Positions 3,395-35,932 of a stretch of DNA of 35,932 nucleotides are shown here, piece by piece. The notes beneath the pieces are model-generated. The model did not search any database, had not been told where the DNA came from, and saw only the letters and a list, made by a program, of their open reading frames with translations. Within the stretch, counting starts at the first letter, position 1, and every line of letters starts with the position of its first letter. Where the stretch lies: assembly GCA_003216455.1 (NCBI GenBank), contig QCIV01000010.1, forward strand, positions 1 to 35,932, given 5' to 3'. The stretch is from Prochlorococcus sp. AG-402-N17. GTDB taxonomy: Bacteria > Cyanobacteriota > Cyanobacteriia > PCC-6307 > Cyanobiaceae. The position numbers were made by a program, and so were the translations under genes.

Positions 3395-3817
3395 TTAGTG
3401 CATCTTACAAGGCATCCATTTATTGCCCATTTTATGTGCTCCAACACATCCGTATTTTGAGGCAGCTTCTTCAGCCTCTTGTTTAGTGTTAAATAGATCT
3501 GACATCATATTTTCCTTATTTGAATTTGAAATTTGTTTGGAATGATTATGATGATTGTTATGATAATTAGGTGAATACTCCCATATTCCCATAGTAGTCA
3601 GACCAGCAGAGATAATTCCCATCCCAACTACTGATAAATTGACTATTCCCATTGCTACTGCACCAAAAGAAAATACACCCATTGGGACTACTCCTATACT
3701 TATTACTCCCATTGGCACTATGCCTATTGAAACTATACCAAGAGGCGCTATTCCAATAGCAATTTTTTTTGGTTTTGTACCGCAATGCTGATTCTCTTTA
3801 CTTTTATTAATTCCCAA
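3395..3817 (-). CDS. Five-residue hydrophobic/glycine repeat protein with C-terminal DUF3721-like domain
   Basis: A 140-residue protein of unknown function in two parts. Residues about 18-78 are a nearly uninterrupted five-residue periodicity x-x-[SMF]-G-[IV] (APLGI VSIGI VPMGV ISIGV), about twelve units. This is unlike the A(D/N)Lxx pentapeptide family and could form a beta-solenoid or lie in a membrane. After a His/Asn-rich linker (NNHHNHS), the last 35 residues read as DUF3721: FNTKQEAEEAA followed by CVGAHKMGNKWMPCKMH, with Cys and His spaced for possible metal or disulfide chemistry. The start is TTG at 3817, with a weak AAGAA upstream; the 98-bp gap to hisS is a divergent promoter region. 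The repeat is directly visible; the domain name is recalled, and the function is not known to me. Confidence 0.72.
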   Translation of the reverse strand: MGINKSKENQHCGTKPKKIAIGIAPLGIVSIGIVPMGVISIGVVPMGVFSFGAVAMGIVNLSVVGMGIISAGLTTMGIWEYSPNYHNNHHNHSKQISNSNKENMMSDLFNTKQEAEEAASKYGCVGAHKMGNKWMPCKMH

Positions 3818-3915: not shown

Positions 3916-5196
3916 TTGAATAACTTAAAAAATCTAAGAGGAACAGTAGACTTATTGCCTGATCAATTAATAAAGTGGCAAAATGTTGAGAAAATTGTAT
4001 TGGAACAGCTTTCAAGAGCATCCATCAAAGAAATAAGAACACCAATACTGGAAATGACCGAGTTATTTATAAGAGGAATTGGAGAAGGAACGGATGTTGT
4101 AAGTAAGGAAATGTATACATTTCTTGATAGAGGGGAGAGATCCTGTACGCTCAGACCCGAAGGAACAGCCTCAGTAGCACGAGCGTTAATACAAAATGGA
4201 ATATCTTCTTATCCTCTTCAAAAACTTTGGTACATGGGTCCTATGTTTCGATACGAAAGACCTCAAGCAGGCAGACAAAGACAGTTTCATCAGTTAGGCG
4301 TTGAGTTTATAGGGCATGATTCAGTTAGAAGTGATGTTGAAATTATTGCTTTAGCTTGGGATATCTTAGGAAAATTAGGAATAAAAGCACTCAATCTTGA
4401 AATAAATACTTTAGGTGATACAAATGACAGATCAAATTTTCAAAAATCCTTTTTAAAATGGCTAGAAATAAATAAAGATTCTCTAGATTTAGATTCTCAG
4501 AATAGGATTACTAAAAACCCTTTGAGGATTTTGGACTCAAAGAATATTCAAACAAAAAAAGCTCTTGAAAATGCACCAAGATTATTTGATTTTTTGTCTG
4601 AAAAAAGTCATAACAGATATTCAGACTTAAAAAAACAATTAGAGGTTTTAAAAATACCTTACGTGGAAAATTTTAATTTAGTAAGAGGTTTAGATTATTA
4701 CACCCATACTGCTTTTGAAATAACAAGTGGTGCTTTAGGTTCCCAAGCTACAGTTTGCGGTGGAGGAAGATACGATGATTTAATAAAACAAATGGGAGGG
4801 CCAAATACCCCGGCAATTGGATTTGCTATTGGTCTAGAAAGATTAATTCTACTAGCAGGAAAAGATCTTGAAGTTCCAAGAAATACTGATATTTATATTA
4901 TTAATCAAGGCTTAATTGCTGAATACTTAGCTTTGGATTTATCTAGAAAATTAAGAAATTATGATTTGATAGTTGAGTTGGATTTAAGTGGAGCCTCATT
5001 TTCTAAACAATTTAAAAAGGCAAATAAACTAAAATCTAAAAGTATTATTGTAATTGGTGATGATGAGGCAGTTAAAGGTGAATTTATTATAAGGCTCTTT
5101 GATCAATCAGGTAATGGAAATGAAGAAGAGATTATATCTTTTGAGAATGATATTGAATTGGAAAAATGGATAAATAATAATTTACTTGCGAAGTGA
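3916..5196 (+). CDS. hisS: Histidyl-tRNA synthetase
   Basis: Class II aminoacyl-tRNA synthetase that charges tRNA-His. The 426 residues are the usual bacterial length. Motif 1 lies around residues 41-65 (RTPILEMTELFIRG), motif 2 is FRYERPQAGRQRQFHQLGVE at 111-130, the histidine-specific HisA motif is RGLDYYTHT at about 257-265, and motif 3 is GFAIGLERL at about 302-310. A C-terminal anticodon-binding domain follows (from DIYIINQGL onward). The start is TTG at 3916 (LNNLKNLRGTVDLLP); GTVDLLP is the conserved N-terminal signature, so the start is well placed. The TGA stop overlaps the ATG of the next gene (TGATG), which suggests translational coupling. Confidence 0.97.
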   Translation: MNNLKNLRGTVDLLPDQLIKWQNVEKIVLEQLSRASIKEIRTPILEMTELFIRGIGEGTDVVSKEMYTFLDRGERSCTLRPEGTASVARALIQNGISSYPLQKLWYMGPMFRYERPQAGRQRQFHQLGVEFIGHDSVRSDVEIIALAWDILGKLGIKALNLEINTLGDTNDRSNFQKSFLKWLEINKDSLDLDSQNRITKNPLRILDSKNIQTKKALENAPRLFDFLSEKSHNRYSDLKKQLEVLKIPYVENFNLVRGLDYYTHTAFEITSGALGSQATVCGGGRYDDLIKQMGGPNTPAIGFAIGLERLILLAGKDLEVPRNTDIYIINQGLIAEYLALDLSRKLRNYDLIVELDLSGASFSKQFKKANKLKSKSIIVIGDDEAVKGEFIIRLFDQSGNGNEEEIISFENDIELEKWINNNLLAK

Positions 5197-5488: not shown

Positions 5489-5788
5489 ATGGAAAATTAC
5501 TGGACTTCTAATAAAACCATAAATGGATTGAGACATTTTGTTTTAGTTAATGAGACTAAAGAAAAAGGAAATGTTAGTTTTTTAATGGTTTCCGTCCTTG
5601 ATTCTAAAATTAACTTAACAACTACATACGAAGAATTAATAAATAGTGGAAATTGGCACAAGGGTTGGATCAATCTTTCAAAGCATCAATCTATTACAGA
5701 AGAATACGTTAACTTTAAATCCATCAATAGAGGAGAGGGTATTGATGAGATATTCATTAATGAAGATTCTTTATTTAATATTTCTTAA
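5489..5788 (+). CDS. Small tryptophan-containing conserved protein (TIGR02450-like)
   Basis: A 99-residue soluble protein. The opening YWTSNKTINGLRHFVLVN, and NWHKGWINL near residues 54-62, resemble the small Trp-rich family known from cyanobacteria and some proteobacteria (TIGR02450), in which a WTS or WTA start and a W-x-x-GW pair are typical. The function of that family is unknown. It begins with ATG 5489, only two bases after the previous stop, so it is very likely co-transcribed with hisS and the small membrane protein. No signal peptide, membrane helix or catalytic motif is seen. Family assignment is from recall of the pattern, so it is moderate. Confidence 0.62.
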   Translation: MENYWTSNKTINGLRHFVLVNETKEKGNVSFLMVSVLDSKINLTTTYEELINSGNWHKGWINLSKHQSITEEYVNFKSINRGEGIDEIFINEDSLFNIS

Positions 5789-5925
5789 TTTGATATAAAT
5801 CTTTGAGATCTCTCTCTCTTTGTAAATACAAGGTTTTTTGTTACTTAATAATTATTTAAAAGTTTTACCCCTTTCAAAAAAATAAAATTAACGTTATTAA
5901 GGATTAATAATATTTACTTAATTCA

Positions 5926-6686: not shown

Positions 6687-7745
6687 ATGCAAACCTATGG
6701 AAATCCAGATACTACCTATGGATGGTGGGCTGGTAATTCAGGTGTAGCGAATCGCTCAGGAAAATTCATTGCTGCTCATGTAGCTCATGCAGGATTAATT
6801 GTTTTCTGGGCGGGTGCATTCACCCTTTTTGAACTTTCACGATTTGACCCAAGCGTCCCAATGGGGCATCAACCTCTAATCGTTCTTCCTCATTTAGCAA
6901 CTCTTGGAATAGGGTTTGATGCTAATGGTGTTGCTATGGGAGATACTAAACCTGTTCTAGCGATAGCAATAGTTCACTTAGTTTCTTCTATGGTTTTAGC
7001 AGCCGGGGGACTTTTACATTCTTTACTTCTTCCTGGAAATCTAGAAGATTCTGATGTAGCAAGAGCCAGAAAATTCAATATTGAATGGGATAATCCAGAC
7101 AAATTGACATTTATTCTTGGTCACCATCTAATTATTCTTGGTTTCGCAGTTATTGCTTTTGTCGAATGGGCAAGAGTTCATGGAATTTATGATCCAGCTA
7201 TTGGTTCAGTAAGACAGGTTGAGTATGAATTAAATTTAGCCAAAATTTGGAATCATCAGACAGACTTTTTGACTATTGATAGTCTTGAAGAAGTAATGGG
7301 AGGTCATGCTTTCCTTGCTTTCGTTGAGATTACTGGTGGTGCTTGGCATATTGCTACTAAGCAAGTTGGTGAATATACCAAATTCAAAGGTAAAGGCCTT
7401 CTCTCCGCAGAAGCTGTTCTTTCATGGTCACTAGCTGGAATAGGCTGGATGGCTATTATTGCAGCCTTCTGGAGTGCAGCTAACACAACAGTTTATCCAA
7501 CTGAATTCTTTGGTGAACCACTTGAATTGAAATTTAGTATTTCTCCATATTGGGTAGATACTGTTGATCTTCCTGACGGTGAGTACACTTCAAGGGCGTG
7601 GTTAGCTAATGTTCATTACTATTTCGGATTCTTCTTTATTCAAGGTCATCTATGGCATGCTTTAAGAGCACTAGGCTTTGACTTCAAGAGAGTTACAAAT
7701 GCTATCAGTAATATTGATAGTGCTACAGTTACTCTTAAAGATTAA
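6687..7745 (+). CDS. pcbA: Divinyl chlorophyll a/b light-harvesting antenna protein Pcb
   Basis: Integral thylakoid antenna protein of the PsbC/IsiA/Pcb superfamily. In Prochlorococcus it binds divinyl chlorophylls a and b and feeds energy to the photosystems. The 352 residues have the expected six hydrophobic spans and lack the large lumenal loop of CP43. The start [17 protein letters not shown] is diagnostic, as are paired histidines in the helices ([70 protein letters not shown]) that ligate chlorophyll. Only one copy is present here, as expected of a high-light clade genome with a single pcb. It is flanked by a long regulatory upstream region and a good intrinsic terminator, so it is a single-gene unit. 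The A suffix is by analogy and is less certain than the family. Confidence 0.96.
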
Positions 7746-9523: not shown

Positions 9524-10179
9524 TTAGATGGGAAATAATTCTTCCTAGAATATGGTTCCCATAATTCGTATTTATGCATTAAGGATTTAAATTCTCTATT
9601 TTTCTCAAATGATTCTAACCAGTTTTTTATTGAGGATTCAAAATAATTTGTTCTTTTTTGACTTTCACAAGCGATTCTAAATTGTCTTACAAAAGGCCAA
9701 ATAGACCAATCAGCGATTGTGGGGCTATCTCCAAAAAAGTATTTGTTTTCTGAAAGAAGTTCGTTCCATTTCTTTATAAATTTAATCGCATTTGTGAAAT
9801 GAAATTCTTCATCACTATTCTTATATCTTGTGGCATATTTAAATCGATCTAAATGATATTTGAATTCGTTATCATTTTCATTTATTATTTCAAAAATAGC
9901 TTCTTTTTTGTCGTCAGGAAAATAAATTAATTTGATGTTTTCCTTTTTTGACTCTAGGAGTGCCCACTGGATAATTTCAAGACTTTCTTCAATAACTTCA
10001 CTATTTTTTTTTATAAGTATTGGAACCGTTTTCGTCTCTGAATTATTTAAAAAATCAAGAGGTTTATTTTTTAAATCAATTTCTCTTATCTCTACTTTTA
10101 TTTCACAAATTAATAGGGCCCATCTTGCACGAATTGCATATGGACATCTTCGAAATGAATATAAAATATCGTTTTTCAT
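9520..10179 (-). CDS. Glutathione S-transferase family protein
   Basis: A 219-residue cytosolic GST-like protein. The N-terminal thioredoxin-fold half (residues 1-75) has YSFRRCPYAIRARWAL with Cys12-Pro13-Tyr14 at the active-site position, as in omega/lambda-like or stringent-starvation-type GSTs, then the cis-Pro segment TVPILI and the glutathione gamma-glutamyl site EESLEIIQWAL. The all-helical C-terminal half includes FFGDSPTIADWSIWPFVRQF, the usual N-capping region. A Cys rather than Ser/Tyr at the active site points to thiol transfer or dehydroascorbate-reductase-like chemistry rather than classic conjugation. The start is ATG 10179, divergent from the GIY-YIG gene across 74 bp. Confidence 0.82.
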   Translation of the reverse strand: MKNDILYSFRRCPYAIRARWALLICEIKVEIREIDLKNKPLDFLNNSETKTVPILIKKNSEVIEESLEIIQWALLESKKENIKLIYFPDDKKEAIFEIINENDNEFKYHLDRFKYATRYKNSDEEFHFTNAIKFIKKWNELLSENKYFFGDSPTIADWSIWPFVRQFRIACESQKRTNYFESSIKNWLESFEKNREFKSLMHKYELWEPYSRKNYFPSN

Positions 10180-33381: not shown

Positions 33382-33454
33382 AATCTAAATAGAATTTATC
33401 CTAACAAGAACGTTTCAAAAAGGCGTTTATATTATTCGGTTCTTTTTATTTGAA

Positions 33455-33541
33455 CGGAGGGGGTGGGATTCGAACCCACGGTGCCCTTGCAGACACGCTA
33501 GTTTTCAAGACTAGAGCCTTAAACCACTCGACCACCCCTCC
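33455..33541 (-). tRNA. tRNA-Ser (UGA)
   Basis: Read on the minus strand it begins GGAGGGG, has a D-arm, the anticodon arm CTAGT-CTTGAAA-ACTAG with anticodon TGA, the long variable arm GTGTCTGCAAGGGCAC typical of class II serine tRNA, the T-arm GTGGGTTCGAATCCCAC, and the matching acceptor CCCCTCC with discriminator G. About 87 nt; CCA is not encoded. All stems pair well. Type and anticodon are therefore clear. Confidence 0.96.
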
Positions 33542-33704
33542 AAAGGGTTATTCAGTTTAATTGAACTTAAAAACTATAACATAAGAAATTAGTCACAGTC
33601 TATAAATTCAAAGATTAAAAAATTATTTCAAGAAACTAGTTTGAGAACTGAATTTTATTAAAAATGACGGGTTAAATCGTTATAACAGTCTTTTATTAGT
33701 CACA

Positions 33705-33741
33705 TTTAGTCCACAAATTTAGTCCACAAATTTAGTCCACA
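33705..33741. repeat. 13-bp tandem repeat TTTAGTCCACAAA, 2.8 copies
   Basis: TTTAGTCCACAAA at 33705-33717, again at 33718-33730, then TTTAGTCCACA at 33731-33741, in the 221-bp gene-free gap between tRNA-Ser and the TPR gene. A degenerate fourth copy (TTAGTCACA) may precede it. It resembles neither a strict DnaA box nor a promoter. It may be a regulator site, an integration-related repeat beside a tRNA gene, or replication slippage. Confidence 0.75.
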
Positions 33742-33762
33742 TCAAAAAATCCTAAGTGAAAT

Positions 33763-34191
33763 TTATTCTTTTAGGTTTTTAAATCTTTGATTTAATCTAA
33801 ATATTTCTTTCAAAGAGTTTAGATTTTTTTGATGACTCTCATTCTCTGGTTCTAAGTCAATTAATTTTTTGCAATCCTTTATTGCTTCTTCATACTGAGA
33901 AAGAACTGAGTGCGCTAAGTAGCGATAATAATAAATAGATCCATTTTCAGGATTTAGTTCAATTGCCTTATTAAAATCTATGATGCTTGATAAATATTGA
34001 TTCAGTTGCATCTTTACAAGTCCCCTTAACTCAAAAGCTTCACTTAAACGAATTTCAGAAAGAGGGAGTTCGAATGATAATGCCTCATTTATATGTGCCA
34101 GGCAACTTAAATATGCATCAATTTCATAGAAATGAACCGCCTTGGTATAAAGATCCTTAAATTGAAAAAATTTATTCATAATAAAAGTCAT
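33763..34191 (-). CDS. Tetratricopeptide-repeat protein
   Basis: A 142-residue soluble protein of about three TPR units: YTKAVHFYEIDAYLSCLAHINEAL, AFELRGLVKMQLNQYLSSII then DFNKAIELNPENGSIYYYRY, and YEEAIKDCKKLIDLEPENES. The consensus W/L-G-Y-A-F-A-P is visible in A-x-x-L-x-P patterns. It is likely a protein-protein interaction adaptor; no catalytic domain. ATG 34191 (MTFIMNKF) or ATG 34179 (MNKF) may be the start. It is the second gene of an operon: 5 bp after the stop of the 75-residue gene. Confidence 0.85.
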   Translation of the reverse strand: MTFIMNKFFQFKDLYTKAVHFYEIDAYLSCLAHINEALSFELPLSEIRLSEAFELRGLVKMQLNQYLSSIIDFNKAIELNPENGSIYYYRYLAHSVLSQYEEAIKDCKKLIDLEPENESHQKNLNSLKEIFRLNQRFKNLKE

Positions 34192-34196
34192 TATTT

Positions 34197-34424
34197 TTAA
34201 ATTGAATTAAAGAAATCAGCAAATATGAAATACCCTTCACTTCCTGCCTCAAATGGATAGGAATCATTTAAATAATCTCCCCATTCTTCTCTAATCGATT
34301 TACGTATTTCAGGGGAAAGTTCTTTCCACCTCTTTTTCAGGTCATCTTTTGAATGGTGGATAGATAATGTTAATCTGATACTTTCAATTTGTGAGATTTT
34401 TCTTGGAGGAAGGTCTTCGATCAT
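34197..34424 (-). CDS. Small acidic/helical hypothetical protein
   Basis: A 75-residue protein. Helical N-terminal part PRKISQIESIRLTLSIHHS, then a central KKRWKELSPEIRKSIREEWGDY and a less charged C-terminus (YPFEAGSEGYFIFADFFNS). It is not recognised as a family member. It lies directly ahead of the TPR gene, separated by 5 bp, and is divergent from the partial RHH/SepF-like/TPR gene across 248 bp. It may be a partner or regulator of the TPR protein, but there is no direct evidence. Confidence 0.6.
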   Translation of the reverse strand: MIEDLPPRKISQIESIRLTLSIHHSKDDLKKRWKELSPEIRKSIREEWGDYLNDSYPFEAGSEGYFIFADFFNSI

Positions 34425-34496
34425 TACTAAAAATTTTAAATAAAAATAAAATTACCCAAAGGTGAATAAAAAATCATTAAAGGACAAGAAACGTTG

Positions 34497-34538
34497 GAGT
34501 CCTTATTACGATATAAATTAAAAATAGAGTCCTTCTTA
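34497..34538. repeat. Direct repeat GAGTCCTT(A/C)TTA with an inverted copy nearby
   Basis: GAGTCCTTATTA (34497-34508) and GAGTCCTTCTTA (34527-34538), 30 bp apart; AAGGAC at 34480-34485 forms an inverted half. They lie in the divergent gap between 34424 and 34673, 40-180 bp from both starts, so they may be regulator sites. The repeat is seen; the role is not proven. Confidence 0.45.
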
Positions 34539-34672
34539 TAAAAGTCAATCTTTGTTTTGGAATGAAAACGGGAAAATAGTTGCAAGAACAAAGTATATAA
34601 AAATTGACCTAAAAATTTTATGCGTTTAAATTATTGATAGAGGGACTAATTCCTCGCTCTCATGAGATTTTA

Positions 34673-35932
34673 ATGCCAAAAGCAATTCCTAAAGGTGGAA
34701 AAAGAATAATCCAGGTTAAGGTAAATTTTAATGAGCCAGAAAAGGAATGTTTAGATAAATTAGTTGAATTTTATAAATCTTTTGATGCGTCTTCTACTCC
34801 ATCTTCTACATTAAGAAAACTATTAATTAATTGGAAAAACTTAGAAAAATATGTTGTAAGTATCGATGAAATTAGATCCAAAATAAGTGATTTTTGTAAA
34901 AATAATAAAAATAAATTATCTAATGATATTTTAGAAAAACTTTACTCACTTATTGAGATTGCTGATGCTTTAGCGGAAGAATCAAATGATGTTGATAAAT
35001 TTACTAAGCGAAAAGTAATTAATAATATCTCAGAAAATAAAAGTACTGAAGAGCTAATTGAGAGTAATGCGAAAATTGTTATTTTAAAACTATTTGAAGT
35101 AGATGAGGGAAATATAATTATTGATCATCTTCAAGAAGGTAATTCCGTTATTTGCGATTTCAGTGAATTTAATTTTGGTGAGAATGGAATTTCTGATGAA
35201 TTTAGTTTTCTAAAAGGAGGCATTTATGGAATAAAGGCTAAAACTGAAAAGATAAGTAGAGACATATTTATTTTTACTCCAAATAAAACAGAGATTGAGA
35301 ATCTCTCAAAAAAAAAATCAAATTCTCATTCAGTAAATAAATTAGCAGCAATACTTAGTCAAAAAAAAGGCAAAGAAAAAAATTATCCGAATCAATACAA
35401 TAAACAAATTCCTTCATTAGAGCGTTGCTTATTGATGACTGCAGAAATAGATCTAGATAAGGATTTAAACAATGATTTAGATGCTCTTAGAAAATTTAAT
35501 AAATCAAATAATTCAGATCTTCAAAATGAGAAAAAACTTTTGGAGTGGGCACTTACCAAATATGAGAGAAATTTATTAGATGCATCCCTGATAGATTTAG
35601 ACAATGCTATTAAAATCAATCCACTTTATTCAAAAGCTTATTATTGGCGAGGTAATGCAAAACAAAAATTAAATTTATGTGAAGAAGCACTAGAAGACTA
35701 TGATGAAGCAATAAAATTGGAACCTAAACTAGCGCTTGCTTATTGTAATCGAGGAGTAGCAAATTCTAATTTAGGTCGAGATGAAGAGGCAATAAAAGAC
35801 TTTGATGAAGCAATAAAATTGGATCCTAAACTTGCCTATGCTTATGTTAATCGAGCATCAGCAAAGTACAATTTAAGTAGATATGAAGAAACAATAAAAG
35901 ATTGCGGTGAAGCAATAAAATTAGATCCTAAA
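34673..35932 (+). CDS. RHH, SepF-like and TPR multidomain protein, partial (3' end beyond window)
   Basis: An open frame of 420 codons with no stop before the window edge. Residues 10-54 read as a ribbon-helix-helix: strand RIIQVKVNFN, helix EPEKECLDKLVEFYKSFD, second helix SSTLRKLLINW. After a charged helical stretch, residues 134-208 resemble SepF/DUF552: AKIVILKLFEVDEGNIIIDH, LQEGNSVICDF, FLKGGIYGI, and DIFIFTPNK, which follow the order of SepF (IADHL, VVVNL, FLSG, YA, IF..TP). SepF is an FtsZ-binding division protein; here the usual N-terminal membrane helix is replaced by the RHH. A Lys/Asn-rich linker (205-290) leads to TPR units from about residue 290, with 102-bp DNA periodicity. Start ATG 34673; weak ribosome-binding site. 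Confidence 0.75.
   Translation, partial: MPKAIPKGGKRIIQVKVNFNEPEKECLDKLVEFYKSFDASSTPSSTLRKLLINWKNLEKYVVSIDEIRSKISDFCKNNKNKLSNDILEKLYSLIEIADALAEESNDVDKFTKRKVINNISENKSTEELIESNAKIVILKLFEVDEGNIIIDHLQEGNSVICDFSEFNFGENGISDEFSFLKGGIYGIKAKTEKISRDIFIFTPNKTEIENLSKKKSNSHSVNKLAAILSQKKGKEKNYPNQYNKQIPSLERCLLMTAEIDLDKDLNNDLDALRKFNKSNNSDLQNEKKLLEWALTKYERNLLDASLIDLDNAIKINPLYSKAYYWRGNAKQKLNLCEEALEDYDEAIKLEPKLALAYCNRGVANSNLGRDEEAIKDFDEAIKLDPKLAYAYVNRASAKYNLSRYEETIKDCGEAIKLDPK

Follow-up and report, generated by a model that had tools for sequence, protein, structure and literature searches.

A SepF fold behind a ribbon-helix-helix-like part on a tRNA-Ser-bounded island of Prochlorococcus

Genes and features at the contig end

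The window, by which we mean the whole stretch of DNA analysed, is the entire contig QCIV01000010.1 (35,932 bp, C10 below) of Prochlorococcus sp. AG-402-N17, whose assembly holds 1.14 Mb in 36 contigs and is 67% complete. A preliminary description of the sequence had pointed to a forward-strand frame of 420 codons from ATG 34673, in which a ribbon-helix-helix (RHH), a SepF-like division domain and TPR repeats follow one another. This frame is confirmed and runs to 35932, the end of the contig. The order of the three domains is real in this protein; the RHH and SepF parts are kept together in two other genomes, and the TPR array is found in the AG-402-N17 copy alone. The two relatives come from Prochlorococcus sp. 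AG-686-O05 (contig QCVV01000001.1, locus L055) and AG-355-N16 (contig QCEF01000019.1, locus L056), names of a form used for single-cell genomes. Features of the locus are collected in Table 1. Far from this locus, at 3395-3817 on the reverse strand of the window, a 140-aa open reading frame with a regular hydrophobic repeat was also observed (GIVSIGIVPMGVISIGVVPMG).

Table 1. Features around the fusion gene in the window (strand "." where a feature has no direction)
Feature	Position	Strand	Basis
tRNA-Ser(TGA), island boundary	33454..33542	-	tRNA search; repeats of its 5' end
Small TPR gene separate from the fusion gene; neighbouring gene in each of the three loci	33763..34191	-	locus comparison
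75-aa gene, conserved neighbour	34197..34424	-	no informative profile match
Putative operator pair AGTCCTT-N23-AGTCCTT	34498..34534	.	common to three loci; overlaps putative divergent promoter
Putative divergent promoter TTGACT-N16-TATTTT for 75-aa gene and TPR gene	34521..34548	-	consensus match only
Putative RHH-SepF gene promoter, TTGACC and TTTAAAT	34604..34631	+	consensus match only; L055 and L056 arranged similarly
Imperfect inverted repeat GAGGGACTAATTCCTC, after putative -10, related to AGTCCTT site	34640..34655	.	counterparts in L055 and L056
RHH-SepF-TPR gene	34673..35932, continues very probably in C20:2-1258	+	open frame; Pfam; contig comparison
Putative ribbon-helix-helix DNA-binding domain, residues ~10-56	34700..34840	+	model of relative's aligned N-terminus; residues invariant in 3/3
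Helical linker, residues 61-130	34853..35062	+	secondary structure of low-confidence model
SepF-like domain, residues 135-208	35075..35296	+	PF04472; PDB profile; Foldseek
A10 run at SepF/TPR junction	35308..35317	+	sequence; L055 (AG-686-O05) protein ends here
TPR array start, unit ~102 bp, left border approximate	35579..35932	+	TPR_1 matches; AG-402-N17 copy only

Domains of the fusion protein

SepF elements had been described at residues 134-208, and comparison of residues 125-215 with SepF bears this out by a significant match: residues 135-208 match PF04472 with 43.1 bits over a cut-off of 27 and an E value of 4.9e-11 (Pfam). A profile of the three fusion proteins searched against the PDB found solved SepF structures with E values from 1.1e-8 to 9.4e-7, among them 8hzt (1.1e-8) and 3zih (4.4e-8). 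Residues 1-227 were modelled by AlphaFold at low confidence (mean pLDDT 42.9). Rows 1-22 of the Foldseek search with this model were all SepF entries, the best target-normalised TM being 0.80 (6scs); for two of these rows (3p04) the title names no more than a C. glutamicum 'BCR' protein. With SepF (PF04472; C. glutamicum 6scp, B. subtilis 3zih) the fusion proteins share the core fold, the FxxGG core in the form FxxGG(I/T)Y, the final beta strands and the aromatic residue at the FtsZ-contact position.

The main departure lies in helix alpha-2, which according to passages of two structural papers contributes to the dimer face and to the FtsZ groove of SepF (PMC7118173, PMC8178401). The alpha-2 signature of SepF is lost in the three fusion proteins, where the invariant Arg is replaced by D/E/Q, the invariant Asp by S/N/E and the invariant Ala position is occupied by N/N/A, and a 2-residue insertion is present. 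This comparison was made with 45 SepF sequences of the genus Prochlorococcus (26 distinct, from part of the genomes) and those of B. subtilis and C. glutamicum. The position of C. glutamicum F131 is occupied by F/Y/Y and that of K125 by K/E/K in the window, L055 and L056 proteins, respectively; in C. glutamicum SepF, which binds the FtsZ C-terminal peptide with an affinity of ~15 uM, joint mutation of K125 and F131 is reported to abolish FtsZ binding (PMC7118173). Since these positions retain an aromatic residue and K/E/K, the FtsZ-contact sites are not clearly destroyed and FtsZ binding may persist. The domain of the fusion proteins is a SepF fold without membrane anchor, for which FtsZ binding is possible.

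The N-terminus is Lys/Pro-rich and continues into the RHH-like part; judged by eye, the amphipathic membrane-targeting helix of SepF is absent. The earlier proposal of a DNA-binding module where SepF has this helix holds to that extent, the position being taken by an RHH-like part and a helical linker (longer in the L056 protein). An ordinary sepF is also present in AG-402-N17, elsewhere in the genome. It possesses the N-terminal helix, starts MSLISRLKAVV and adjoins a YggS-like gene and proC (gene names from reading translations), whereas the fusion gene lies outside the sepF neighbourhood, is rare and is island-borne in two of three genomes. In genome G129 a second SepF match was detected besides the fusion, while an ordinary sepF was not matched by the profile search in genome G137 (63% complete).

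Additional SepF matches were observed more widely: in a count from the listing, more than one match was present in 36 of the 292 genomes of the phylum, namely three in G274, G718, G769 and G836 and two in the others. Genome G107 carries a 64-residue stand-alone SepF-like open reading frame (L035:7428-7622, forward strand; PF04472, 47 bits), which matches phages weakly (4 records). It stands tail to tail, 13 bp apart, with a tyrosine recombinase-like gene (L035:7636-8913, reverse strand; PF00589, 24.3 bits, just under the cut-off of 27.1), and is thus a second link of SepF-like sequences with mobile-element genes.

The N-terminal RHH assignment of the preliminary description is borne out by the modelled fold of the L055 relative and not by curated RHH profiles, none of which in Pfam or NCBIfam exceeded its cut-off for any of the three fusion proteins. 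For the AG-402-N17 N-terminus not even a weak RHH match was found in these two collections; over the expected N-terminal stretch, sub-threshold matches were to DUF6290 in the L055 protein and to a NikA-like family in the L056 protein, both RHH families. PHROGs gave the window protein a weak match to an Arc-like family (E 0.036), located at residues 54-149, outside the putative RHH. The N-terminal sequence profile returned five weak rows and no RHH protein from the PDB (Bloom syndrome protein, UPF0297).

The 62 N-terminal residues of the L055 protein were modelled alone, with a mean pLDDT of 69.4 and blocks of 80-88 at residues 21-50. Helices are formed by residues 21-33 and 38-47, and DSSP assigns no strand, as can be the case when just one half of an intermolecular ribbon is modelled. 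Foldseek matches of this model are mostly proteins that we recognise as RHH (TacA, Arc, MatP, CopG, KacA, AtaR, AmrZ, NikR, PutA), mainly repressors and antitoxins. The first ten Foldseek rows have probabilities of 0.84-0.93 and E values of only 0.29-0.77, and VIA-align listed the same class, with Z of 5.0-5.6 over its first 22 rows, values below 8 not being decisive by themselves. No variation occurs among the three fusion proteins at residues K10, R11, Q14, V15, K16, V17, S45, L47 and R48. Judged from the modelled fold of the L055 relative, the N-terminus is a putative ribbon-helix-helix. With RHH repressors such as Arc, CopG, AmrZ and NikR it would share the predicted fold, the invariant basic or polar N-terminal residues and operator-like repeats at its own gene; it differs from them in falling below all curated profiles and in being followed by a SepF fold. 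In NikR, the second part is an ACT-like domain.

The C-terminus was correctly read as TPR: it matches TPR_1 in three stretches (Pfam, 81.1 bits over a cut-off of 27.8). TPR arrays are common in the genus, the C-terminal part being matched in 120 of 265 genomes (E 1e-8). DNA homology of the window to L055 (72% over 33455-35322) ends at the L055 stop codon, next to the run of ten adenines (A10), which is one of two runs of at least 10 A or T in the window. One possibility is that the RHH-SepF part is real and the TPR array a separate gene, joined to it only because the length of the A run is wrong or a read was chimeric. A change of A10 by one or two A would end the product at 220-222 aa, close to the 218 aa of the L055 protein, and the TPR fusion is absent from both relatives. 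We nevertheless regard such an artefact as very improbable. Past A10 the frame is open for 38 codons to the first ATG (chance ~0.045) and GC by codon position is 0.38/0.30/0.16, which suggests a true TPR extension; moreover, contig C20 (L069) of the same assembly carries on the TPR frame and then holds island pieces in L055 order.

C20 opens inside an in-frame TPR array (2-1258, 418 codons), the DNA of which is up to 85% identical to window 35680-35932. Further along, C20:1407-1455, 2133-2286 and 5548-5797 match L055 8923-8975, 9280-9433 and 9848-10096 in the same order, the last pair with 82% identity over 250 bp, and C20:1453-3230 matches L056 4199-2431 at 73%. From this array and the L055-like order of pieces, C20 very probably follows C10, although no exact overlap between the ends of the two contigs was found. 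The missing 3' end is to that degree recovered, and the full fusion protein would very probably comprise at least 838 aa, C10 and C20 being joined with a gap between them.

Island, relatives and operator-like sites

The 5' 44 bp of the tRNA-Ser gene (window 33499-33542) are exactly repeated at C20:5619-5662. In L055, the tRNA-Ser gene at 6792-6881 has a perfect 44-bp repeat at 9919-9962, a spacing of 3,080 bp, and the 7-kb L056 contig contains no tRNA. The RHH-SepF gene is located on a tRNA-Ser-bounded island in two of the three genomes. The visible part of the AG-402-N17 island amounts to ~8.1 kb plus the gap between C10 and C20. Beyond this repeat, the 5' end of tRNA-Ser was observed once more at C20:5790-5835 (L069:5790-5835; 48 columns, 96%), which gives the impression of tandemly stacked islands.

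Location at a tRNA gene and direct repeats of part of the tRNA are shared with the tycheposons of Prochlorococcus, which passages of their description characterize as tRNA-bordered elements of 4-200 kbp with a tyrosine recombinase (PMC10872708). The islands studied here differ in that the one in L055 measures only ~3.1 kb and in that no tyrosine recombinase was identified by Pfam among the visible genes of the AG-402-N17 island, which has a gap in a genome 67% complete. The sole PF00589 match in this genome is at C6:23192. Cargo observed on C20 includes a GIY-YIG gene, matching PADLOC PD-T4-3 with E 1.6e-20, and a Cas4-like PD-(D/E)XK nuclease (L069:3275-4081 and 4092-4916), with a possible function in phage defence.

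Two of the loci have a divergent gene order and the remaining one is RHH-first, and L056 has a different divergent gene. The product of the 75-aa gene has no informative match in Pfam, PADLOC or PHROGs; its family occurs in eight of 265 genomes, in five of which no RHH-SepF was found. Family members were located at L216-L219 and L221, and the relative in L216 adjoins a gene reading like a serine recombinase.

In a profile search of the genus (E 1e-6), 220 of 266 genomes were matched and RHH+SepF was found in three of the 266 among the matches listed. Among the rows listed, in order of E value, only those of these three genomes (322-374 bits) cover the RHH part, and the other listed rows (up to 42.6 bits, none starting before profile position 65) were counted as ordinary SepF. 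The count of three is a lower bound because many genomes are incomplete. At the family level (E 1e-11), two of 400 genomes sampled contained RHH+SepF. Identity to the AG-402-N17 protein is 54% for L055 and 35% for L056. Between AG-402-N17 and L055, dN is 0.35 and dS 1.32 (dN/dS ~0.27), with the lowest dN (0.29) in the SepF part.

The combination of RHH-like domain, helical linker and SepF fold is retained in three genomes. An assembly error that joins separate genes, raised earlier as an alternative, is refuted for the RHH+SepF part by its recurrence in two further genomes, and the fusion is real. No matches to the window protein, A1, the G107 minigene or A5 were found in viral_contigs, none to the window protein in a phage search and none to the L056 and window proteins in plasmid searches; no PADLOC model matches any of the three RHH-SepF proteins. 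Open-literature searches (titles, starts of abstracts and a few passages) returned no protein in which SepF is joined to an RHH or other DNA-binding domain.

The word AGTCCTT repeated at a spacing of exactly 30 bp is the sole 7-base word and spacing common to the three intergenic regions, and none of 2000 first-order shuffles gave any shared word and spacing. The two copies are located 175/145, 171/141 and 172/142 bp upstream of the start codon in the three loci. One copy lies within, or at the border of, the -35/-10 spacer of the putative divergent promoter, and the other downstream of its -10; in the window, AGGACT is found inside this spacer. The promoters themselves are putative, assigned from their match to the consensus. 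The exact pair was found in three of 265 genomes, which are the carriers of the gene, and solely at the RHH-SepF gene; a reversed-pattern control had one match in each of three other genomes. As the pattern was derived by inspecting these same three loci, the informative part of this result is its absence elsewhere. With up to 3 mismatches the pattern occurs 4 times in the window compared with 4.2 expected, so that only the exact pair is informative, and the at least 120 stretches matched in viral_contigs were taken as chance in a very large collection. A riboregulator reading of the inverted repeat was dropped, as its RNA hairpin was not clearly stabler than shuffles (z -0.89, -0.42 and +0.90).

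Gene switch or division partner

Taken as a whole, the preliminary interpretation finds partial support; it had foreseen neither the tRNA-Ser-bounded island nor the operator-like sites, nor that the TPR array would be restricted to one copy. In our reading, the protein is probably an autoregulator of a tRNA-Ser-bounded integrative Prochlorococcus island in which the SepF fold has been reused for multimerisation. The RHH domain would bind AGTCCTT/AGGACT. At the inverted repeat directly following the -10 it would repress the promoter of its own gene, and from the two AGTCCTT sites 30 bp apart, one within the -35/-10 spacer or at its border and one past the -10, it would repress the divergent transcript. 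Known SepF proteins make dimers and polymers. In the fusion protein, the SepF-fold domain would hold RHH dimers together and lead to cooperative binding at separated sites, with the surface of helix alpha-2, used by SepF for dimers and FtsZ, apparently remodelled. The TPR array added C-terminally in AG-402-N17 is perhaps a protein-docking arm, and slippage on A10 is a candidate source of two products, which could be the short ancestral and the long TPR form. Weighed against the autoregulator reading are the individually weak RHH structural matches of the L055 model (E >=0.29, Z <=5.6) and the small size of the family: three members are known, one of which, L056, differs in its divergent gene and lies on a contig without a tRNA.

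Another possibility, which we consider unlikely, is that the protein is an adaptor between DNA and the divisome, in which the RHH holds a site on the island and the SepF domain binds host FtsZ or SepF, timing or placing division. The SepF fold itself, an aromatic residue at the FtsZ-contact position in 3/3 proteins and a basic one in 2/3 are consistent with it, as are the presence of MatP among the RHH fold matches of the L055 N-terminal model and the report that SepF is an essential component of the early divisome of cyanobacteria, which lack FtsA (PMC8178401). Against it stand alpha-2, which is part of the FtsZ groove and of the dimer face and has gained a 2-residue insertion and lost its invariant residues, the occurrence of the exact site pair at a single place per genome, the absence of the membrane helix and the finding of the gene in only 3/266 genomes, among the matches listed.

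E. coli MatP, an RHH protein of the Ter region, links to the divisome through ZapB and ZapA. The fusion protein would resemble it in having an RHH-type DNA-binding domain possibly tied to the division machinery, and would differ in that its division partner would be the fused SepF. Sites for MatP (matS) and for SlmA are scattered, whereas the exact site pair of the fusion is single in each genome and located at its own gene. In Haloferax, the RHH protein CdrS has a gene of its own adjacent to ftsZ2, and SepF is reported to decrease when cdrS-ftsZ2 is repressed (PMC8406309). A more specific form of the adaptor, to which we give rather little credence, would be an island-encoded, sequence-specific bridge in a single polypeptide from the island's own DNA to the host FtsZ ring, a fused equivalent of MatP-ZapB-ZapA-FtsZ in which A10 slippage sets the ratio of bare to TPR-armed protein. 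If true, such a bridge between DNA and FtsZ would serve to position division or set its timing, or to keep the island at midcell.

It is improbable, in our estimate, that the protein acts by dominant interference, its SepF-like part co-assembling with host SepF to poison or delay division for the island while the RHH merely autoregulates dose. A host SepF is present in the same genome, the G107 minigene beside a recombinase-like gene places a SepF-like sequence near mobile-element genes for a second time, and operator-like control suits a costly product, yet the dimer-forming alpha-2 surface is strongly unlike that of host SepF, and a partner antidote was not recognised. Alternatively, the protein might resemble RHH antitoxins, its C-terminal SepF-like part neutralising a toxin encoded nearby, such as the 75-aa gene product. 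This would fit the antitoxins AtaR, TacA and KacA among the best fold matches and the small conserved neighbour gene, but we give it the least credit of all, because the 75-aa gene occurs in five more genomes in which RHH-SepF was not found, its product lacks informative Pfam, PADLOC or PHROGs matches, and the gene order varies (divergent in 2 loci, RHH-first in 1), unlike that of a fixed toxin-antitoxin pair.

Reuse of SepF for multimerisation in an autoregulator fits better with an exact site pair found, in 265 genomes, only at the protein's own gene, the lack of a membrane helix and the altered alpha-2. The conserved sites suggest that the protein mainly switches island genes, and a possible connection to cell division has less support; judging from sequence, a regulator with SepF multimerisation is the better supported reading and a DNA-to-FtsZ tether the bolder one.

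SepF is regarded as a dedicated anchor of FtsZ to the membrane. Here, selection has maintained the fold C-terminal to a DNA-binding-like domain in an island-encoded protein, whose gene lies beside a conserved and specific DNA site. This raises the question of whether a transcription factor can take over the SepF fold for its multimerisation or whether the island reaches the divisome. Within the literature searched, either answer would add something new on SepF and on how islands of Prochlorococcus are regulated.
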